From a virus: a stretch of DNA of 55,753 bases. The notes under the pieces are model-generated. The model was not told where the DNA came from. It saw nothing but the letters and a program-made list of their open reading frames with translations, and did no database searches. Positions 32,830 through 54,039 of this stretch are shown piece after piece. The stretch is from positions 1-55,753 of IMG/VR virus record IMGVR_UViG_3300022934_000025; one strand, given 5' to 3'. The translations under genes were made by a program, and so were the position numbers. The stretch's first letter is position 1; every line of letters starts with the position of its first letter.

Positions 32830-33303
32830 TTACGAGTCAGCGAATGGAGTGGCTAACGTGCCAGAACCAAGCAAAGTACCTGTTACTAGATATTCATCTG
32901 CGGCAATTGCAGTGACTTCTACATAGGAACCCTCAATACCGCCAGTAGTAGTTCCATTCATAGAAATTACATCGTTTGTTGCAGCGGGCGCGAAGCCACG
33001 AGCCTGTGACGTAGCAGCCGCCGCCAACACCAGATTGCCAACAAACTTGTCAGTGCCGTCTGTTTTGATGTCTAAATCAGACGCTGTAGTGCCAATGAAA
33101 AACACATACTTTGCACCAATAGTGTCGGTAGAAGCAGATGGAAGCGTAACCGCGCCGTCAGCATCGTTGATTTCAATGATGCGACCAACATGGTCAGCAT
33201 ACGTGAGAGTGGTTTCCGCAGTAATGTTTACCACGGCAGTAGAACCTACCGAGGTGAACCCGCGTTCGGACCGTACTGGTCCTGAAAAAGTTGTTTGTCC
33301 CAT
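32830..33303 (-). CDS. Capsid decoration-like protein
   Basis: 157 residues beginning MGQTTFSGPVRSERGFTSVG, with a Thr/Ala/Gly-rich beta domain (HVGRIIEINDADGAVTLPSA, YVFFIGTTASDLDIKTDGTD). I recognise this start as common among marine phage proteins encoded next to the major capsid gene. It has its own position after the capsid gene terminator, so it may be produced in lower amounts. A surface decoration or fibre-like function is inferred. Confidence 0.7.
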   Translation of the reverse strand: MGQTTFSGPVRSERGFTSVGSTAVVNITAETTLTYADHVGRIIEINDADGAVTLPSASTDTIGAKYVFFIGTTASDLDIKTDGTDKFVGNLVLAAAATSQARGFAPAATNDVISMNGTTTGGIEGSYVEVTAIAADEYLVTGTLLGSGTLATPFADS

Positions 33304-33381
33304 ATCTATCTCCTGTCTTGGGTTATGTCAGTCGCAACATGCAACTGTCAGGGATAGGATCAGGATACATTAGAAACAAAT

Positions 33382-33414
33382 AAAAAGAAAGGGGCAACTT
33401 TCGTTACCCCTTTC
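33382..33414 (-). terminator. Terminator downstream of the major capsid gene
   Basis: On the minus strand a 12-bp stem with one mismatch (arms 33403-33414 and 33387-33398, loop GAAA) is followed by TCTTTTTA. It lies about 50 bp past the capsid stop. It probably trims or partly ends the abundant capsid transcript ahead of the decoration, tail and internal-virion genes. The gap 33304-33465 contains nothing else that I can see. Confidence 0.8.
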
Positions 33415-38906: not shown

Positions 38907-40910
38907 TTAGCCGCCGCCAGCGAGTGACCCAATGCCTCCTTGAGTTTCAGGTCTGCGGAAAGGATTGTCAGATACGGGCATTGTTTGTTGTGCCCCTGTC
39001 AAACCGTAAGAACTTGCGGATCGAACGTTCACTGGACCCGGTGCCGGTGCTGGACCACCCGTATTGTCCAAATCGCCTACAGGACCGACCGGGATAACGG
39101 AGTAACCGCCTTGTCCATCTGGAACAGTTCCTGACGGAATGCTACCAAAAGCACCCATACCAGCGTTTTGCCCAAACGGATTAAACCCTAGTAGATCAAC
39201 ATTAATACCACCGGGGTTACTTGCAAGATATTGATCTAACGCAGCTTGTTGTTCTGGCGTAAGTCCTGTGTTTGTCGGGTTAGTTGGAATAGGCGTTCCG
39301 GGCTCCAGATCACCATACTCGGCTAATTGACCGTCGGTTAAAAACTCTCCCGCAGGCGTCACATAATCTTCTGGATTAAAGCTGCCCATAAAATCAGAAG
39401 GCGAAGTACCTTGCGCTTCATTTATAGCACTTTGAGGCAAACCCGCGGGTTGCTGACCGGGTGTATATACACCTGTTTCAGGTTCCACAAACCCTCCAGC
39501 ATCCTGACCTAAACTGACCAGATCATCCAAAGTCAGGCCCCTACCAGTAGGTAGGCTTGGCGCTGGTTCTGGCGTGGGTTCCGGTGTTGGTCCGGGCGGT
39601 GTTGGTCCGGGCATTGTTGGCATTTCAAAATCGAAGCCTTCTCCGGGTAAACCGGTGAGGTCCAACGTGCTAAGGTCAAAAGAGCTACCGTCCGGTAAGG
39701 AAATAGTGTTTTCTGCTTCGACAACATCCCTACGGCCACCAAGAGATGCCATTTGCTCTGGTGTTGGAGCTACGGGTTCCCCAAGGTTTGGCAAAGCGGC
39801 TTGACCACGCCCCGGACCCTCAAGGTTTAATGTTGTTTGAGGCGGACCTGAAGGAGCAACAAACTCTTCTACCATAGGAAATTGATCGGCTAATGTCTCA
39901 ATACCTGATGTATCAATGTTTTGGAGAGCAGCAGCAATTTCAGGAGCGGGCTCCGGTGCTGGTTGCATTACCGGTGGCGGAACTTCCACAGGGGGAGGTG
40001 CCACGGGTCCAACTGTCCCACGTGAAAGAATATCTTCCGGAAGAGTAAAGTCCGCAGGTAAATCTATTGGTTCAGGCGTCATTACTGGGGGTGCCACAGG
40101 CTCTGGCGTAGGCTCTGGACCCGGTAAAACACCTTGAAAAGAACCCGGTGCCATAGGGGTTGGGACACCGGGCTGGCTAGGTGCCAAGGGAATAGGTGGT
40201 GCTACAGGCTCTGGTGTGGGCTGCATAACAGGCGGTGGAACCTCCACGGGTGGGGGTGCTACAGGCCCGACTGTTCCACGTGAAACAATGTCGTCTGGTG
40301 GAGCAGGTAAGTTAATCGGTGGTGGCACCTGTACCGGAGGTGGTAATTCATTGACCGGCGGAGCAGGTGGTAAAGGTGCCGCAACTGGGGGAGGCGGTGG
40401 AGGTGGAGGCGGCAATATCGGCTCAGGTACTGGCTGCGGTACTGGCGTAGGAATAGAAAATACAGGCTCTGGCGTAGGAGCAGGCATCGGCATCGGTTCC
40501 GGTACTTGCGGCATCGGTGCAGGCATGGGCGGCTCTGGAATTGGCAGAGGCGCAGGTTGTGGCACGGGCACTGGCGCAGGTACTTGAGGTACTGGCGCAG
40601 GCATAGGAATCTGCGGCTCCATTGGCGGCATAGGAATTGGTGGCACACCGGGGTTCGCAATAATCGGGCCAGATTCACCGGGTAAAGGCAGCGGCGGCTG
40701 CTTGATAGGAACCTTAACAGGCTCTGCTCTAGGAGGTTTTACAGGCAAGGGAGGCTGCTTGATAGGTACTTTAACAGGCTCTGCTCTAGGGGGTTTCACT
40801 GGTGCAGGCTGAACCGCGGGTGGAGGAGAAACCCCAACAGGAACTGGTGTAGGAAACTTAATGTCGAGCGGTAAGCCTCCGGGTGGCATAAATCTTGTAA
40901 AATCAACCAT
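38907..40910 (-). CDS. Proline-rich low-complexity virion protein
   Basis: 667 residues, over a quarter proline. The first 60 residues contain two copies of KPPRAEPVKVPIKQPPLP. Two further repeats centre on SRGTVGPVAPPPVEVPPPVM (DNA near 39970-40045 and 40228-40305). The C-terminal third is less biased (GLTPEQQAALDQYLASNPGG; VRSASSYGLTGAQQTMPVSD, NPFRRPET). An extended polyproline rod or flexible linker is expected, possibly a surface fibre or internal virion protein. An exact parS box (40272-40287) is contained in the coding sequence. Position between portal and lysis genes. Confidence 0.72.
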   Translation of the reverse strand: MVDFTRFMPPGGLPLDIKFPTPVPVGVSPPPAVQPAPVKPPRAEPVKVPIKQPPLPVKPPRAEPVKVPIKQPPLPLPGESGPIIANPGVPPIPMPPMEPQIPMPAPVPQVPAPVPVPQPAPLPIPEPPMPAPMPQVPEPMPMPAPTPEPVFSIPTPVPQPVPEPILPPPPPPPPPVAAPLPPAPPVNELPPPVQVPPPINLPAPPDDIVSRGTVGPVAPPPVEVPPPVMQPTPEPVAPPIPLAPSQPGVPTPMAPGSFQGVLPGPEPTPEPVAPPVMTPEPIDLPADFTLPEDILSRGTVGPVAPPPVEVPPPVMQPAPEPAPEIAAALQNIDTSGIETLADQFPMVEEFVAPSGPPQTTLNLEGPGRGQAALPNLGEPVAPTPEQMASLGGRRDVVEAENTISLPDGSSFDLSTLDLTGLPGEGFDFEMPTMPGPTPPGPTPEPTPEPAPSLPTGRGLTLDDLVSLGQDAGGFVEPETGVYTPGQQPAGLPQSAINEAQGTSPSDFMGSFNPEDYVTPAGEFLTDGQLAEYGDLEPGTPIPTNPTNTGLTPEQQAALDQYLASNPGGINVDLLGFNPFGQNAGMGAFGSIPSGTVPDGQGGYSVIPVGPVGDLDNTGGPAPAPGPVNVRSASSYGLTGAQQTMPVSDNPFRRPETQGGIGSLAGGG
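40272..40287. promoter_or_regulatory. Exact parS-like ParB box inside a coding region
   Basis: TGTTCCACGTGAAACA is identical to the classic ParB-binding parS sequence known from B. subtilis and is close to the alphaproteobacterial TGTTTCACGTGAAACA. It overlaps codons for V-S-R-G-T in the proline-rich protein. The sister repeat at 40014-40029 keeps 14 of 16 positions. Whether ParB binds it is untested. Confidence 0.6.
40696..40799. repeat. Tandem 57-bp coding repeat
   Basis: Two copies with a 57-bp period (from 40696 and from 40753) encode the 19-residue proline/lysine unit at the N-terminus of the proline-rich protein. They differ at a few bases. Confidence 0.85.
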
Positions 40911-46031: not shown

Positions 46032-46047
46032 TGTTCCACGTGGAACA
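46032..46047. promoter_or_regulatory. parS-like palindrome 1 upstream of terL
   Basis: TGTTCCACGTGGAACA is a perfect 16-bp palindrome with 15 of 16 positions identical to TGTTCCACGTGAAACA parS. It is one of two such boxes centred 24 bp apart in the leader between a promoter (46080-46108) and terL. The phage encodes no ParA or ParB that I can recognise, so host ParB is the likely ligand. Confidence 0.75.
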
Positions 46048-46055
46048 TTTCACGT

Positions 46056-46071
46056 TGTTTCACGTGAAACA
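46056..46071. promoter_or_regulatory. parS-like palindrome 2 upstream of terL
   Basis: TGTTTCACGTGAAACA is a perfect palindrome identical to the parS consensus used by alphaproteobacteria such as Caulobacter. Between this box and the first lies an extra half-site, TTTCACGT (46048-46055). Binding of host ParB here, directly downstream of the late promoter, could tether the phage genome to the host segregation machinery or block transcription. Confidence 0.8.
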
Positions 46072-46109: not shown

Positions 46110-46537
46110 ACAGTTAATTCTGGTTCGAAATAACTGGTGATTATTTGCGAAAAACATGGCTCAAGCCCCCGCTTCGTAAACACGGGGCCGTGCGCGGTGG
46201 ATCGCGGTTTTTGGCTCCCGCTCCGTGCCATTTGACCCGATACGCTGGGGCCCCTGCCGACGGTTCGCGGCGCTTGGACCATGACCCGCGGCGCTTGGTC
46301 CAGCGGCCATGGCCGCGGATAACTGGCAGCGGCTGGGGTGCATCGTCCGCGGTTTAATTTTCACGGGCTGGGGTTCGGGGTTCGGGGATCGCGCAGCGCG
46401 GCCCGCTGCCGACGGCCTGCCGCCCGCTAACTTTTGCCAACTGGGCACGGCCTGCGGCCATGGGATCGCGGCCCGTAGGTTTTGGGAAGGGAGCGCGGGG
46501 CGGGGCCCGCCTTGTTTAACTGGGAAACACTAGGCAC
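46110..46537. other. GC-rich non-coding island
   Basis: About 430 bp without a convincing gene. After about 40 AT-rich bases the sequence becomes very GC-rich with recurring words such as CCGCGG, GCGGCC and CGGCGCTTGG (twice, near 46269 and 46291), and a CGGCCATGGCCG palindrome near 46302. Open frames on both strands are Ala/Pro/Arg-rich, lack ribosome sites and contradict the codon use of their neighbours. It may hold a structured RNA, a packaging or origin site, or acquired DNA. Confidence 0.5.
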
Positions 46538-46583: not shown

Positions 46584-46985
46584 TTAGACGTTGATCGACA
46601 AATCCAGTTCGATGTTCGAATAGTCGACTTCAACGGATATATCCCCGTCGCGGATCATATCTTTGACGGTTTCGCGGATTTTGTCGTCGGTCGCGTCGTC
46701 GGTCTCGTCTTCGCGATCTGCTAGCGTTCGGTCGATATGCTGCCCGATGCGGTCGCGCATCAAATCAAAAAGAACATCCGCCAACTGCTGGCGCTGTTCG
46801 GCGGCGGCTTGTATCTCCGCGCTCATTTTCTGGATGTTCAGTTCCAATCGCTCCGCGTATTCCTGCAAGTTTTTATGATCCAACGCGGCGGCTTTCAAAT
46901 CCGATCCGGTCGCGTCGCGTCCGTCTTGGATATGATCGGCGGCTAATTGGTCCAGATATTCGACGTTCGTTTTAAGTTCAATCAT
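46584..46985 (-). CDS. Acidic coiled-coil accessory protein
   Basis: 133 residues. A helical N-terminal and central part (AADHIQDGRDATGSDLKAAA; LQEYAERLELNIQKMSAEIQ) leads to an acidic stretch (REDETDDATDDKIRETVKDM) and an alternating beta-like end (ISVEVDYSNIELDLSINV). No family recognised. It is a single-gene transcription unit with its own promoter, leader hairpin and terminator in an island of similar cassettes, so it is probably an early accessory protein. Confidence 0.75.
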   Translation of the reverse strand: MIELKTNVEYLDQLAADHIQDGRDATGSDLKAAALDHKNLQEYAERLELNIQKMSAEIQAAAEQRQQLADVLFDLMRDRIGQHIDRTLADREDETDDATDDKIRETVKDMIRDGDISVEVDYSNIELDLSINV

Positions 46986-46995
46986 GGTTCAGTTT

Positions 46996-47068
46996 CTCCG
47001 TTGTTAAAGTTGCGACGGCTTGCCCGCCGTCGTATGCGATTATATGCGCTAACTTTTCAAAAAGTAAA
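46996..47068 (-). promoter_or_regulatory. Promoter-hairpin-leader cassette of the 46584 gene
   Basis: TTTACT (47068-47063), 18-bp spacer, TATAAT (47044-47039). The transcript then forms a 6-bp hairpin with loop GGGCAA (47031-47014), followed by the leader variant AACAACGGAG (47005-46996), which includes the ribosome site. The -35 region is embedded in an ACTTTT-TG-AAAAGT inverted repeat. Confidence 0.75.
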
Positions 47069-47118: not shown

Positions 47119-47532
47119 CTAGTCAAATCTGGCGATTTTGGTTTGACGGGTTGCGCGGTCGCGTATGGCGGTAATCCCGTATTCATATACGAAACACTCG
47201 AAACCCTCAAAGATGAAACGCGCCAGCGGTGCCAGTGCTGGATCGTCGTCGTGTTCGCTTTGGTATGTCCCGTTGTGATCGTCAACGGTCCCGCTGAATG
47301 GATAACAAAAGCCGCCAAATTGATAAGCGTCATCCATGCCCGCCGCGATATTGTCCAGCGTCAACGGGTCCGCCGTCATGCAAGCTTGGCAGAAAAAGTC
47401 GGGAATGATCCCGCAAGCTTCCGCCAATTGTGCAGGCGTTGCCCCGCCTAGCTGTTTATCCTGCGCAGGATTGAAAACCCGATCCAGTAATAAGTCGGAC
47501 GGGCGCACATTTAAAGTTCTAACGTTTTCCAT
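47119..47532 (-). CDS. Accessory protein of unknown function
   Basis: 137 residues. Blocks include LGGATPAQLAEACGIIPDFF, CMTADPLTLDNIAAGMDDAY, FGGFCYPFSGTVDDHNGTYQ and EGFECFVYEYGITAIRD. Cysteines and aromatic residues are frequent. The pattern resembles a small family that travels with DUF932-type genes in phages and plasmids; no activity is known to me. It is transcribed as a single-gene unit in the accessory island. Confidence 0.75.
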   Translation of the reverse strand: MENVRTLNVRPSDLLLDRVFNPAQDKQLGGATPAQLAEACGIIPDFFCQACMTADPLTLDNIAAGMDDAYQFGGFCYPFSGTVDDHNGTYQSEHDDDPALAPLARFIFEGFECFVYEYGITAIRDRATRQTKIARFD

Positions 47533-47541
47533 GGTTTTTTA

Positions 47542-47610
47542 CTCCGTAGTAATGCGGCGCTTTATTGCCCCGCGTATGTGATTATATGCGATAACTTTTG
47601 AAAAAGTAAA
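47542..47610 (-). promoter_or_regulatory. Promoter-hairpin-leader cassette of the 47119 gene
   Basis: TTTACT (47610-47605), 18-bp spacer, TATAAT (47586-47581), then a 7-bp hairpin with one mismatch and a six-base loop AATAAA (47573-47554), then leader TACTACGGAG (47551-47542) with the ribosome site. About 40 bases upstream of and including the -10 are nearly identical to the cassette at 47039-47068, showing duplication or strong constraint. Confidence 0.78.
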
Positions 47611-47666: not shown

Positions 47667-48857
47667 TTATGCGGCGACTTTATCCAGTAACGCGCCCGCC
47701 TTTCGTTCGATTTCAATGCGGGCATCTTGGTGCGGTATGTCCCGCGCAATTGCGGTAATAGCCTGCGCCGCGTCCCAAACTGTTTCAACGGGTCGGCCTT
47801 CTTCTTTTAAATGCCTAGCGTTCGCGGCCTTGGCCATGCGGCCAGATAATCCCGCCCGCTTACTTAGGAAATCAAAACGGCTTTCATCATCGTGCGCAAT
47901 CTTGGCGGCCTTGGCAGCTTGGACGCCTTCAATAAATGTAGACGTTGCACCATGCGCGAAGCTTTCCAAAGCTGGCCGCGCTTCCATCGCGAAACGATCG
48001 GGCGCGAATTTGGTATGCCTAATCTTAATTTCTTGGAAGTTTTCCACGCCCCAAAGATTTCGATTCATACAAACCCCGCGCAGATACATCGCGGCGATGC
48101 CTGCGGTTTTGCTGCCCGTTTCACTGTTCCATGCGTAAAAGCCGCGGAACATCAAATCGGGTTCGCCGTTCGGCAGCTTACCGACTTCGATAGGGTTGCG
48201 GTCGTCAACTAGGAAAACGAAAACGTCGCGGTCGCTGGCGAATAGCGTGGTCGTTTCCATTGTTACTGGCACGTCGGGATCGTAAACGGCTAAACCGTCG
48301 CGGCTTCCCGTCATCATGCCCGGCACTTTCCAACGTCCGCCGCTGGCGTCAACTAGGTTTTTCACTGGTTCCAAAATTTCCCAGTCAAAAATTCGCCCGT
48401 AGTCTGGACCCGTTGCGGCGCGTAAATCCCCGCCGTCGGTTTGGCTACCGTATACCTTGACCAGTTCCCGCCCGCGGTTATAGCGCAAACCCCATTGAAT
48501 ACAGTCCGCCGCCAATGGTGCAGGCAAGTCGCGCAGGTAACCAGCGGGTGCGCCAGATAGCTGGGACAATTGGCCAAAACTCCAATTGGTCGGGGTGTTC
48601 ACGTGGTCGCGGTAATTGTCGTCTTGGTATTCAACGCGCAAATCCCCGCGGCTGGGGTTGCTTTCATCCAGTTCGCCAATGATCTGGATTTTGTGAGTAT
48701 CAACGGTGCGGCTTGTCATCCGCTGGGCGTCAATCTTTTTTGTGGCCAGCATATCATCCAGCGTCAAAAACTTTTGATCGTCGGGACGGCTGAACCATTG
48801 TGATGAAACCGCGCTATTTCCAATGCCATGCGCGAAGGCGTTAGTTGTATAAGTCAT
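47667..48857 (-). CDS. DUF932 phage/plasmid-like protein
   Basis: 396 residues. The layout THKIQIIGELDESNPSRGDL, FGQLSQLSGAPAGYLRDLPA, YGSQTDGGDLRAATGPDYGR, IFDWEILEPVKNLVDASGG, FVFLVDDRNPIEVG, FRGFYAWNSETGSKTAGIAA, MYLRGVCMNRNLWG matches DUF932 (the TIGR03299 phage/plasmid family). Such proteins occur in large phages and plasmids; the biochemical role is not established. It is the largest gene of the accessory island and has its own promoter, hairpin leader and terminator. The leader has the longest match to the candidate sRNA seed. Confidence 0.88.
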   Translation of the reverse strand: MTYTTNAFAHGIGNSAVSSQWFSRPDDQKFLTLDDMLATKKIDAQRMTSRTVDTHKIQIIGELDESNPSRGDLRVEYQDDNYRDHVNTPTNWSFGQLSQLSGAPAGYLRDLPAPLAADCIQWGLRYNRGRELVKVYGSQTDGGDLRAATGPDYGRIFDWEILEPVKNLVDASGGRWKVPGMMTGSRDGLAVYDPDVPVTMETTTLFASDRDVFVFLVDDRNPIEVGKLPNGEPDLMFRGFYAWNSETGSKTAGIAAMYLRGVCMNRNLWGVENFQEIKIRHTKFAPDRFAMEARPALESFAHGATSTFIEGVQAAKAAKIAHDDESRFDFLSKRAGLSGRMAKAANARHLKEEGRPVETVWDAAQAITAIARDIPHQDARIEIERKAGALLDKVAA

Positions 48858-48865
48858 ATTTTTTA

Positions 48866-48941
48866 CTCCGTAGTTAAAAGTTAAGGGCCGATCATTTCTG
48901 ACCAGCCCCTATAATATCCCATATTATTGTATATGGTGCAA
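48866..48941 (-). promoter_or_regulatory. Promoter-hairpin-leader cassette of the DUF932 gene
   Basis: A possible promoter is TTGCAC (48941-48936) with TATTAT (48916-48911) at 19 bp; alternative -10 choices overlap it. The transcript forms a 9-bp stem with loop AGAAAT (48908-48885), then TTTTAACTACGGAG (48879-48866) with the ribosome site. These 14 bases are the exact complement of the sRNA candidate at 53632-53645. Confidence 0.65.
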
Positions 48942-48943
48942 GC

Positions 48944-48962
48944 TAATTTTTTAGAAAGTTAT
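48944..48962. repeat. 19-bp repeat TAATTTTTTAGAAAGTTAT (copy 1)
   Basis: Identical to 52180-52198; lies across the stop of the cysteine-rich protein gene and runs into the DUF932 promoter region. The matching placement at two gene ends suggests that cassettes were joined at this sequence. Confidence 0.85.
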
Positions 48963-49672
48963 TCCAGCCCAATGTCGCCCGCAACATGATGCCGAATGAT
49001 CGAACGCGGCGGGAGTGATTTCGCAAACCGCAAAAGCTTTTCCCCGTCCGTTTCATCCGGTTGCGATTGGTTTGAAGTATCGCGCCAATGCAATGCAACG
49101 TTTCCGCCGTCGGCATAACATCCGCCGCGCACGTCGGGATCGGCGGCTTTTTTCTTGCTGGCACCATGCGCGGTAAATCCGATCACATAATCCCTATCAA
49201 GTCGGGCGCACAATGGCAGGCCGTTGCCACAATCGCGGCAGCTAAACCCGTCACGATATTCGGCGGGACATCTAACGACCCGAACACCCCAGCCAGCGGG
49301 TTGGGTTTTTTTACCTTCCCAGCTATCTGGCGAAACGACAGTAACCGACGGGACGCCATTAATAATTGACGCCGCTGCGGCGGCTTTGTTTTCCGTCGAG
49401 AAATTTATGACGGTTTTACCTTCGGCCAATTTACGGTCCCAGCCATATTGGCGCGGATCGAAATGCGAGTAAGTAAACGAGACGCCTTTACGCGGAACCG
49501 CGTCCAATAATGCGTCCAAATAATCTGGATCAATTTTTTGCGATCCCTTCCCGCTGCAATTCATTTTGCAGGCGGCTGGGCAGGTCGCATATTTTTCACC
49601 ATTGCCAGCGCGATAGGTTACCGCGATGCCTTTGGTTTTTTCTGCCCGACTCATTTCTACTGTTTTAAGCAT
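48959..49672 (-). CDS. Cysteine-rich phage/plasmid-type protein
   Basis: 237 residues. KGIAVTYRAGNGEKYATCPA, ACKMNCSG opens with a Cys cluster. A central alpha/beta part (KTVINFSTENKAAAAASIIN; SVTVVSPDSWEG) precedes VRCPAEYRDGFSCRDCGNGL, PLCARLDRDYVIGFTAHG and GGCYADGGN. About nine cysteines suggest a metal site, perhaps an Fe-S or zinc cluster. I have seen such CPxxC...C...GCYA proteins near DUF932 genes, but no reaction is known to me. Overlaps the upstream small gene by 8 nt. Confidence 0.72.
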   Translation of the reverse strand: MLKTVEMSRAEKTKGIAVTYRAGNGEKYATCPAACKMNCSGKGSQKIDPDYLDALLDAVPRKGVSFTYSHFDPRQYGWDRKLAEGKTVINFSTENKAAAAASIINGVPSVTVVSPDSWEGKKTQPAGWGVRVVRCPAEYRDGFSCRDCGNGLPLCARLDRDYVIGFTAHGASKKKAADPDVRGGCYADGGNVALHWRDTSNQSQPDETDGEKLLRFAKSLPPRSIIRHHVAGDIGLE

Positions 49673-49916
49673 GGAACATTTCCCCCAATTTGCAGCCCTG
49701 CATTAATCGGGAACGAATAAAGCAAAAATCATATATGTGTTTATTCCAGTAAAAATCGCCGTTGTGAAACATGCGGATCAATTCCCATTCACCCGTTTTA
49801 CTATCCAAAAATTGGATACCATCCCCGCACGGTTCGATCACGTCGGCCTTAATCCAACATTGTGGGACGGTCATGGTGTCACTTATCGCTTCGCGTAGTT
49901 GAATGTATATCGTCAT
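49665..49916 (-). CDS. Small accessory protein
   Basis: 83 residues: TIYIQLREAISDTMTVPQCW, IKADVIEPCGDGIQFLDSKT, WELIRMFHNGDFYWNKHIYD, FCFIRSRLMQGCKLGEMFHA. Beta-rich with four cysteines, possibly a partner of the cysteine-rich protein that it overlaps. First gene of a two-gene operon with the AACTACGGAGGG leader. Confidence 0.68.
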   Translation of the reverse strand: MTIYIQLREAISDTMTVPQCWIKADVIEPCGDGIQFLDSKTGEWELIRMFHNGDFYWNKHIYDFCFIRSRLMQGCKLGEMFHA

Positions 49917-49925
49917 CGGTTTGCC

Positions 49926-49981
49926 CTCCGTAGTTATAAGATATATCGCATACTATACGACATAAAAAAGCCCGCGGTCAA
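49926..49981 (-). promoter_or_regulatory. Promoter and leader of the 49916-48959 operon
   Basis: TTGACC (49981-49976), 18-bp spacer, TATAGT (49957-49952), then leader AACTACGGAG (49935-49926). No hairpin lies between promoter and leader here. The -35 hexamer is the loop of the terminator at 49964-49988, so promoter and terminator share DNA. Confidence 0.65.
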
Positions 49982-50002: not shown

Positions 50003-50092
50003 TTATCGTCGCCTTCGCTTCGGCTTTGGCCGTAAATCGTCGGCGGCATCTTCCCCAAACAAAAGTTTATAAAGCCATTCGATCAAACCCAT
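50003..50092 (-). CDS. 29-aa peptide with basic tail
   Basis: A 30-codon frame from ATG 50092, overlapping the upstream stop (TAATG), which supports coupled translation. The peptide MGLIEWLYKLLFGEDAADDL continues with RPKPKRRRR: an amphipathic hydrophobic helix, an acidic turn and an Arg-rich end. This layout could give a membrane-binding micropeptide or host-directed toxin, but there is no homology evidence. Confidence 0.5.
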   Translation of the reverse strand: MGLIEWLYKLLFGEDAADDLRPKPKRRRR

Positions 50093-50262
50093 TACACGGC
50101 CTCCACGGTTACGTCGTCATGATAATCGCCGTCATAACTGTTAATAAAATAATCTTCGTCGCCTGCCTTCAATTTTCTTAAAGCATCGTCTTCATCAACA
50201 GCATCAACGTGGTGAACTTCCACGACCGTATAGCTGAACATCACTTTATATTTCTGCGCCAT
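50092..50262 (-). CDS. Small acidic protein (56 aa)
   Basis: A 57-codon frame from ATG 50262 with a strong ribosome site in AACTACGGAGGTAAAACG. It contains YKVMFSYTVVEVHHVDAVDE, DDALRKLKAGDEDYFINSYD and an acidic end. The beta-alpha pattern with about one third acidic residues resembles DNA-mimic or small inhibitor proteins in charge, but no family is recognised. It shares a leader with the other accessory cassettes. Confidence 0.68.
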   Translation of the reverse strand: MAQKYKVMFSYTVVEVHHVDAVDEDDALRKLKAGDEDYFINSYDGDYHDDVTVEAV

Positions 50263-50270
50263 CGTTTTAC

Positions 50271-50326
50271 CTCCGTAGTTAAATTAATGACTATGGGATT
50301 GTATGCGATGTTGTGGGACTAATCAA
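50271..50326 (-). promoter_or_regulatory. Promoter and leader of the 50262-50003 operon
   Basis: TTGATT (50326-50321), 17-bp spacer, TACAAT (50303-50298), then TTTAACTACGGAGG (leader core 50280-50271). The promoter lies within the last codons of the nuclease gene. The leader matches 13 consecutive bases of the sRNA seed. Confidence 0.68.
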
Positions 50327-51710: not shown

Positions 51711-52025
51711 CTACTCAGTGTAGACTTCATACCATTCGTCTTCCCCGTCTTTCGCTTTGTGCGTTATGACATGTGGATCGAATGGAAACCCGTAGCTATG
51801 TCCGACGCGGCCTTGGATGGAGTCACGCATTGCGTGACACTCCGCAGCTAAAAGGTCGGTATAACCATATCGGCAAAGATTGAAACCGATGTAAGCCCCA
51901 CCGTCAAAGTAGTCTTGCTTACGTTTCGATTCGAGTCCGTCGGGAAACTTCTCTTTGATGAATCTTTCGATGTCTTCAAGATTGTTAATGACGACCTTGC
52001 CGTCCTTGAGTTCAAAGTCACTCAT
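51711..52025 (-). CDS. Accessory protein of unknown function
   Basis: 104 residues from ATG 52025, preceded by AACTACGGAGG; the longer frame to 52178 covers the leader and promoter and is rejected. It contains FELKDGKVVINNLEDIERFI, KEKFPDGLESKRKQDYFDGG, YIGFNLCRYGYTDLLAAECH and GHSYGFPFDPHVITHKAKDG. Mixed alpha/beta; no family recognised. Single-gene unit with a strong promoter, two leader hairpins and a terminator, implying abundant controlled expression. Confidence 0.75.
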   Translation of the reverse strand: MSDFELKDGKVVINNLEDIERFIKEKFPDGLESKRKQDYFDGGAYIGFNLCRYGYTDLLAAECHAMRDSIQGRVGHSYGFPFDPHVITHKAKDGEDEWYEVYTE

Positions 52026-52032
52026 GGTGAAC

Positions 52033-52136
52033 CTCCGTAGTTTTTCAATTGTTAAAGAACGTGGGGCTTGCCCGCCCCGCCAACTGGAACTCCCAGTTGG
52101 TAAAAATAGTTTACCACGGGTATGCGATAATGTCAA
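52033..52136 (-). promoter_or_regulatory. Promoter with two-hairpin leader of the 51711 gene
   Basis: TTGACA (52136-52131), 17-bp spacer, TAAACT (52113-52108). The transcript has a 7-bp hairpin CCAACTG/CAGTTGG (52100-52080), then a 5-bp GC hairpin with loop GGGCAA (52078-52063), then the leader AACTACGGAG (52042-52033). The GGGCAA loop is the same as in the 47014-47031 hairpin. The stretch 52143-52194 upstream shows nothing else apart from a repeat at 52180-52198. Confidence 0.75.
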
Positions 52137-53409: not shown

Positions 53410-53576
53410 CCCTGAAGGATACGTTGCCAGCACTTCTCAAGCTCCGCACTGCGTTGCTTGTCTTCTTCGCTGCCGCTTTCTTCGAGTTGTTTTTGGAAGT
53501 CGGTGACGGCTTTGTTCACCTGATTGACTGCGTAAGGCCAAGGTATTTCTGATACGCGTAGGTTTAGTTCGTCCAT
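53406..53576 (-). CDS. Small acidic protein (56 aa)
   Basis: A 57-codon frame from ATG 53576 with an excellent ribosome site (TTAGGAGGATAACC). It contains LNLRVSEIPWPYAVNQVNKA, VTDFQKQLEESGSEEDKQRS and AELEKCWQRILQG: a short N-terminal segment and a charged helix. No family recognised. Transcription from the promoter at 53670-53699 must pass the terminator at 53594-53629 to reach it, so expression may depend on read-through. Confidence 0.7.
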   Translation of the reverse strand: MDELNLRVSEIPWPYAVNQVNKAVTDFQKQLEESGSEEDKQRSAELEKCWQRILQG

Positions 53577-53593
53577 GGTTATCCTCCTAAGAT

Positions 53594-53629
53594 AAAAAAG
53601 CCCCAGCCGGGGGCAACCGTACTGGGGCT
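53594..53629 (-). terminator. Terminator / sRNA 3' hairpin
   Basis: Minus-strand arms 53629-53622 and 53606-53599 (AGCCCCAG/CTGGGGCT), a 15-base loop containing TTGCCC, and six T (53599-53594). It lies between a promoter and the next gene, so it acts as an sRNA terminator, an attenuator, or both. Confidence 0.85.
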
Positions 53630-53663
53630 GGTTTTAACTACGGAGAACATGTTCACCATGTTC
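53594..53663 (-). ncRNA. Candidate trans-acting small RNA with anti-leader seed
   Basis: A promoter at 53699-53670 would start RNA near 53663. The predicted ~70-nt RNA opens with a perfect 7-bp hairpin (GAACAUG/CAUGUUC, 53663-53645). A mostly unpaired segment CUCCGUAGUUAAAACC (53645-53630) follows. It ends with an 8-bp stem AGCCCCAG/CUGGGGCU (53629-53599) and six U. The middle segment is complementary to the AACUACGGAG leaders of six phage operons, covering their ribosome sites (9-14 contiguous pairs, plus a one-mismatch case). This is the layout of bacterial antisense sRNAs. The alternative is that the hairpin only ends the upstream operon. Confidence 0.6.
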
Positions 53664-53669
53664 AAGCGT

Positions 53670-53699
53670 AGTATAACCCCACCAATATGGGATATGCAA
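53670..53699 (-). promoter_or_regulatory. Promoter of the small RNA candidate
   Basis: TTGCAT (53699-53694), 18-bp spacer, TATACT (53675-53670). The start point predicted seven bases downstream coincides with the first base of the 5' hairpin (53663). It overlaps no coding sequence except the flank of the zinc-ribbon gene stop at 53703. Confidence 0.68.
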
Positions 53700-53702
53700 C
53701 AC

Positions 53703-53903
53703 TTAATCGCATATCTCATTCAAGTTTTCTGGGTATTCCCCAGCTTCTAAGGGATCGACAATAGACAATTGGCAGGTCTTACACATACGAAAGAGATGGG
53801 TGTCCGATTTACCGGTCACCGTAAGGGGCTGCTCACACTTGGGGCACTTATTTTCCACCAGTCTTTTGTGGAACTGTCCCGTTTCCCCCGCTGCTTCCAT
53901 CAT
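53703..53903 (-). CDS. Small zinc-ribbon protein
   Basis: 66 residues from ATG 53903 (GGAG 7 bases upstream); an earlier ATG at 53927 lacks a ribosome site. CPKC and CKTC, about 25 residues apart, form a zinc ribbon (NKCPKCEQPLTVTGKSDTHL, FRMCKTCQLSIVDPLEAGEY). It overlaps the ribbon-helix-helix gene by 56 nt in another frame, a compact arrangement. Perhaps a regulator or RNA polymerase-binding protein; not assignable. Confidence 0.72.
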   Translation of the reverse strand: MMEAAGETGQFHKRLVENKCPKCEQPLTVTGKSDTHLFRMCKTCQLSIVDPLEAGEYPENLNEICD

Positions 53904-54039
53904 GTGCTGTCTCCATGTACCACTCAAAGACCAGACGTAATTGTCCGCCGATGGTTCGGCCTTCCTTTTTCGAAAGGGCCTTTATCTCTTCATACACTTC
54001 CCGCGGTACGAGACTGCTTTTCCAACGATCTGTATCCAT
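53848..54039 (-). CDS. Ribbon-helix-helix transcription factor
   Basis: 63 residues. RWKSSLVPREVYEEIKALSK, then KEGRTIGGQLRLVFEWYME gives a strand, helix and second helix in the Arc/CopG order (strand SSLVP, helix REVYEEIKALSKKEG, RTIGGQLRLVFEWY). The C-terminal tail is Gly/Thr-rich. It should bind DNA as a dimer and is a likely repressor of early genes, possibly of its own promoter at 54072-54100. Start preceded by CGGAGAT. Confidence 0.8.
   Translation of the reverse strand: MDTDRWKSSLVPREVYEEIKALSKKEGRTIGGQLRLVFEWYMETAHDGSSGGNGTVPQKTGGK

Follow-up and report, generated by a model that had tools for sequence, protein, structure and literature searches.

A predicted phage small RNA complementary to the ribosome sites of six accessory leaders, with seed and leaders that change together between phage lineages

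Several phage RNAs block a phage message at its ribosome site. c4 (P1/P7) and sar (P22) each act in this way on one antirepressor message (PMC12197685); c4 is encoded upstream of its target in the same transcript. Of the other phage-encoded small RNAs, PreS of lambda acts on host dnaN, VpdS of phage VP882 uses Hfq to act on RNAs of both host and phage, and AgvB is listed with these two as acting on host RNAs or on both (PMC12197685). Among the phage small RNAs covered by that review, the targets are either a single phage message or RNAs of the host. For the OxyS-fhlA pair, two kissing contacts have been proposed, and the ribosome site takes part in one of these (PMC2946933). In Staphylococcus, the long, bifunctional bacterial RNAIII uses C-rich exposed loops to reach the Shine-Dalgarno sequences (SDs) of several mRNAs, and the RegA protein of phage T4 acts at the ribosome sites of many phage mRNAs to repress their translation.

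The locus described here lies on the minus strand of IMG/VR virus record IMGVR_UViG_3300022934_000025, positions 1 to 55,753 of which make up the window. Like c4 and sar, it is proposed to encode a phage RNA that blocks phage mRNA translation by pairing with ribosome sites. Unlike them, it is a free-standing unit with at least six scattered targets and no C4 match, and unlike c4, it is not encoded upstream in its targets' transcript: the six leaders lie ∼1.6 to 6.7 kb away, with other open reading frames (ORFs) and terminator-like sequences in between. As with OxyS-fhlA, a second complementary loop is present in both RNA and target, although the contact itself has not been shown; OxyS, however, is a bacterial stress RNA of different sequence whose second contact in fhlA is in the coding region, whereas here it would be upstream of the SD. 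The resemblance to RNAIII lies in a C-rich exposed element facing several SDs; the sequences are unrelated. The resemblance to RegA lies in one phage factor acting on many phage mRNAs, the factor here being an RNA rather than a protein. VpdS and PreS are likewise phage-encoded and trans-acting, but PMC12197685 does not describe, for either, a leader tag that is shared and covaries. What sets the present RNA apart from known phage antisense RNAs is the number of self-targets, the shared two-part tag, and the joint divergence of tag and reader.

A sequence-only reading had proposed a promoter, a 5′ hairpin, an open segment, and a terminator with six U's at this position. These elements were confirmed as proposed, except for the extent of the open segment: C53645 of its CUCC belongs to the stem of the 5′ hairpin, and the open part therefore begins at UCCGUAG. 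The features of the unit are as follows.

53594 to 53663, minus strand: predicted small RNA (sRNA) of ∼70 nt, supported by promoter, fold (z = −4.3), and covariance-model matches in 64 loci, each on the same strand as polA.
53670 to 53699, minus strand: sigma70-like promoter by sequence reading, with TTGCAT (53699 to 53694), an 18-nt spacer, and TATACT (53675 to 53670).
53686 to 53713, minus strand: conserved operator-like element TATGCGAT...ATCCCATA around −35, also found in target-leader promoter regions.
53645 to 53663, minus strand: 5′ hairpin GAACAUG-GUGAA-CAUGUUC, with two-sided changes in 6 of 7 pairs.
53638 to 53645, minus strand: seed CUCCGUAG, complementary to the SD tags of the leaders; its columns are nearly invariant and its complement is present in leaders.
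53599 to 53629, minus strand: intrinsic terminator hairpin with a covarying upper stem, then a U-run (fold and covariation).
53611 to 53616, minus strand: hexaloop UUGCCC, the proposed second contact; each loop position is identical in 45 to 47 of 47 homologues, and the complement GGGCAA occurs in leaders.

The order of parts is thus 5′ hairpin, open segment UCCGUAGUUAAAACC (with CUCCGUAGUUAAAACC as the complementary part), and terminator hairpin with six U's. The folding energy is −30 kcal/mol, compared to −17.7 kcal/mol for shuffled sequences, none of which (0 of 200) was equally stable. A −10-like hexamer (at least 4 of 6 positions) precedes all 46 distinct homologues, a weak criterion given that the best match in a search window was taken. 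Judged by these sequence features and their conservation, the unit is a free-standing gene with its own promoter and terminator; its transcript has not been seen.

Searches with polA and terL yielded hundreds of related contigs, in which homologues with the same part order sit 0.3 to 2.4 kb downstream of polA. A covariance model built from 34 homologues recovered the 64 loci. Standard pairs fill 88.5% of pair cells (47 distinct rows), compared to 39 to 44% when the partners are slid by one to three columns, and 13 of 18 pairs change on both sides, with compensatory changes in both stems. This alignment had been fitted to the structure; an unfitted one gave 86.0% and 11 of 18 pairs. The upper terminator stem covaries (CGG-CCG, CGC-GCG, CUC-GAG) around the hexaloop UUGCCC, which together with the seed UCCGUAG makes up the nearly invariant unpaired parts. 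G-U cells outnumber A/C cells (34 versus 17), which favors the strand with the U-run, i.e., the sRNA strand, as the functional RNA.

Six leaders complementary to the open segment had also been proposed, and all six were confirmed at the positions below, each just upstream of a minus-strand ORF start.

46994 to 47008, minus strand: leader UUUAACAACGGAG of ORF 46584 to 46985, matching at 14 of 15 positions with one mismatch (CAACGGAG).
47013 to 47032, minus strand: leader hairpin CGACGGC-GGGCAA-GCCGUCG upstream of the SD of ORF 46584 to 46985 (sequence and fold).
47542 to 47550, minus strand: leader ACUACGGAG of ORF 47119 to 47532 (complementarity), with GGGCAA at 47565 to 47570.
48866 to 48879, minus strand: leader UUUUAACUACGGAG of the DUF932 gene at 47667 to 48857 (complementarity and duplex energy).
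49921 to 49936, minus strand: leader UAACUACGGAGGGCAA of ORF 49665 to 49916 and the downstream DUF7227 gene at 48959 to 49672 (complementarity), with GGGCAA overlapping the SD.
50271 to 50283, minus strand: leader UUUAACUACGGAG of ORF 50092 to 50262 (complementarity and duplex energy).
52033 to 52042, minus strand: leader AACUACGGAG of ORF 51711 to 52025 (complementarity and duplex energy).
52063 to 52078, minus strand: leader hairpin GGGGC-GGGCAA-GCCCC upstream of the SD of ORF 51711 to 52025 (sequence and fold).

When 221 candidate ORF starts were ranked by duplex energy with the open segment, these leaders took the first six places. At a threshold of −16 kcal/mol or lower there are six entries, which represent five distinct leaders, one being counted through two overlapping ORFs. 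Shuffled seeds (n = 300) gave a mean of 0.77 entries at this threshold, and only 2 of the 300 reached the observed number. We also ran an unbiased screen for pre-terminator segments that complement several SD windows. The sRNA unit ranked first in the window with eight hits (the runner-up had three). The screen is not fully sensitive: it missed the unit in one related contig (L106). DUF932 and DUF7227, both Pfam domains without a known function, are each encoded by one of the target transcripts, and no Pfam or PHROG family match was found for the remaining target ORFs.

In a sister set of contigs, the RNAs have unrelated hairpins and the seed UCCCGUAG, which contains one extra C (the CUCCCGUAG type). 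Counting leaders only when an ORF lies behind them, the ratio of CUACGGAG to CUACGGGAG leaders was 52:0 in CUCCGUAG contigs of the hairpin-plus-seed type and 9:0 in CUCCGUAG contigs with the seed in a hairpin loop (61:0 for both), compared to 1:36 in CUCCCGUAG contigs, where two of the 36 (in L075 and L082) are merely the sRNA itself read in antisense. Fisher's test gave P = 2 × 10−23 for this split, uncorrected for kinship. At least two switches of seed type are needed on the polA tree, because the loop-type CUCCGUAG contigs fall among CUCCCGUAG contigs; some of the forks are weak. The change is visible in orthologous genes: the DUF932 SD reads aactacggag in the window and in L115 but aactacgggag in L195 and L245, and the DUF7227 SD is ctacggag among kin of the window and ctacgggag in L061. 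Altogether, 41 distinct target proteins were found in CUCCGUAG phages, within which the tag varies (CUAC, UUAC, or CUAU before GGAG). The sequence-only reading had named independent change of leaders and segment in relatives as grounds for refutation; we looked for it and saw the opposite for the split between CUCCGUAG and CUCCCGUAG, for which seed and targets co-evolve.

This check was passed for the most part rather than throughout. In two small clades with variant seeds, CUUCGUAG and CUCUGUAG/CUCUAUAG, pairing is kept mostly through G-U wobble, and the leaders showed no clear preference for their own seed. In the CUUCGUAG clade, a single leader matches perfectly (CUACGAAG, in L122), and the tag is otherwise the wobble-paired CUAUGGAG. 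The CUCUGUAG/CUCUAUAG clade has no fully compensated leader; in CUCUAUAG phages, the DUF932 leader now reads CUAGGAG, so that both sides are altered without clean compensation. With a single perfect leader and no own-seed preference, we rejected these clades as further compensatory pairs. A variant CUCCGUUG with an altered terminator loop occurs in L132 and L339, and the accessory island is absent from the examined parts of the 48-kb contig. Separately, in CUCCCGUAG-type RNAs (L061, L173, L183, L237, and L244), GUAGAG and CUUUACA of the 5′ hairpin flank a loop, CCCCCAAG, that is conserved and C-rich; no loop complementary to it was noticed in the leaders of those contigs.

Two signals had escaped the sequence-only reading, namely, a proposed second contact between UUGCCC and GGGCAA and a promoter element, TATGNGAT, shared by the sRNA and its targets. 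For the first, two leaders in the window carry a hairpin with a GGGCAA loop upstream of the SD, and two more carry GGGCAA upstream of or overlapping the SD. GGGCAA is present in 24 of 43 leaders of phages whose RNA has UUGCCC (19 of 43 lack it) and in none of 45 where the RNA lacks UUGCCC (0/9 and 0/36). Among hexaloop hairpins upstream of an SD and ATG, GGGCAA is the commonest loop in UUGCCC phages (19 of 92), and it is not among the commonest listed in phages without UUGCCC. The seed precedes the loop in the sRNA and the loop precedes the SD in the leaders, an arrangement that would allow the two contacts to form simultaneously and antiparallel to the leader. The co-occurrence of the two motifs is shown by sequence; pairing at two sites is likely, with the loop-loop contact itself inferred.

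The TATGNGAT elements are found in the promoter regions of the sRNA and of all six leaders (one lies ∼80 nt upstream of its leader). Across 46 to 54 kb, almost every accessory-island promoter has such an element, as does that of the sRNA (e.g., 47575 to 47592, 49945, 50292 to 50309, and 53686 to 53713), and the elements are rare elsewhere in the window, which suggests that the sRNA and its targets may share transcriptional control. TATGNGAT could conceivably be the operator of a phage regulator. As a separate observation, a ribbon-helix-helix-like gene (below the Pfam cutoff) is located at 53848 to 54039.

The unit, its complementarity to leaders, the covariation of its stems, and the joint change of seed and tag between two lineages are established by sequence. 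The likely explanation is that the unit is a phage-encoded, trans-acting antisense RNA that represses translation of the phage's own accessory regulon. Downstream of polA, a sigma70-like promoter of its own would start the sRNA, and its own terminator would end it. Its exposed CUCCGUAG would pair with CUACGGAG at the ribosome sites of six or more accessory mRNAs of the phage itself, and in many targets the terminator loop UUGCCC would kiss the GGGCAA loop of the leader, colinear with and antiparallel to the first contact. Pairing would hide the SD and lower translation of the whole accessory set, which would either fix how strongly the set is expressed or shut it down. An antisense regulon had already been proposed from the sequence; the conserved unit and the joint seed and leader change support it, but transcription, repression rather than activation, and timing remain inferences, as there are no transcript or reporter data. 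Other points that count against this explanation are the two seed-variant clades, the leaders without GGGCAA, the variable tag within CUCCGUAG phages, and the restriction of the unit to uncultured contigs.

A bolder reading, toward which we lean only slightly, is that a large marine phage lineage runs its accessory genes as one posttranscriptional regulon. Exchangeable cassettes would join by carrying a two-part tag (a GGGCAA hairpin loop and CUACGGAG at the SD), which one phage RNA would read through two contacts, with tag and reader diverging together between lineages. If so, the regulons of different lineages would be mutually blind. A single RNA in charge of many accessory genes dispersed over the genome that encodes it would show how phages control newly acquired genes, and the tag offers a means of identifying regulon members across viromes, many of which have no known function. 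The lineage occurs in many marine metagenomes.

Of the alternatives, the one that survives best, though we consider it unlikely, is that pairing of the RNA with the leaders activates or stabilizes the messages, or that the leaders act as a sponge and the main targets are host mRNAs. Only pairing has been shown, and other phage sRNAs (VpdS, PreS, and AgvB) act on host targets or other sRNAs (PMC12197685). However, the SD, at which repression classically takes place, lies within the contact, and the joint change with the phage's own leaders marks those leaders as selected partners. A much weaker alternative is that the plus strand is functional, with CUACGGAG at 53638 to 53645 serving a small ORF (MFTMFKRSITPPIWDMQHLIAY...) as its ribosome site, the minus-strand unit being incidental. 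The plus strand does read UUUUAACUACGGAGAACAUG and gives a 33-amino-acid ORF, and similar short ORFs lie opposite several homologues. The ORF is not conserved, however: an ATG is missing at this position from several homologues (e.g., L109, L105, and L137), and the ACTATTGC promoter form in L092 and L094 introduces an in-frame stop. The U-run, the promoter, and the G-U excess favor the minus strand, and CUCCCGUAG phages retain the seed in unrelated hairpins. Finally, the leaders could be alike because accessory cassettes move with a shared promoter and SD module, the antisense copy being a functionless chance or decayed inverted leader, which would fit the common TATGNGAT elements and the seed-then-UUGCCC order that mirrors GGGCAA-then-SD (the RNA may indeed derive from an inverted leader), but this is very unlikely, as a functionless copy would not keep a promoter, two covarying stems, a terminator, and the seed in 64 loci, nor would it track the leader change from CUACGGAG to CUACGGGAG.

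The virus carrying the proposed antisense regulon is related to HTVC023P-type phages, its nearest cultured polA relatives being DSL-LC04 (57%), 023Pt_psg01 (56%), and HTVC023P (51%). The targets are located between terL and polA. polA is split over both ends of the window with an overlap, suggesting a circularly permuted genome; no exact terminal repeat was found in the window. Metagenome-assembled genome (MAG) contigs with related polA carry conflicting phyla and gave no host assignment.

The unit was detected only in uncultured contigs. No such unit was found when the unbiased screen, with its incomplete sensitivity, was applied to HTVC027P, DSL-LC04, and the examined parts of HTVC023P and 023Pt_psg01, and blastn of the unit against a phage collection gave no match. 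The unit matched no Rfam family at the gathering score; C4 in particular gave no match at that score anywhere in the window and was absent among matches up to an E value of 5 (53500 to 53760). In a literature search that mostly did not cover subscription papers, such an RNA was not described for HTVC023P-type phages or for any other phages of marine origin, and a full-text search of papers on HTVC023P-type phages (PMC9599517 and PMC12753301) found no mention of a small RNA.

Some further signals were noted elsewhere in the window. An Rfam Mu-gpT-DE RNA is located at 33301 to 33353 on the minus strand, and just upstream of it, at 33387 to 33402, is a hairpin, GAAAG-UUGCCC-CUUUC, with a hexaloop identical to that of the sRNA. 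Between terL and the accessory island (46160 to 46530) is a G+C-rich region with many short repeats of the GCGGCC/GGCCCG type and no clear gene. Just upstream of terL, at 46032 to 46071, are two sites, TGTTCCACGTGGAACA and TGTTTCACGTGAAACA, with a near match at 40272. We take them to be matches to the bacterial chromosome partition site parS. The window contains four parS-like matches with three or fewer mismatches, compared to 0.34 expected, and similar sites are present in 45 of 80 related terL loci.
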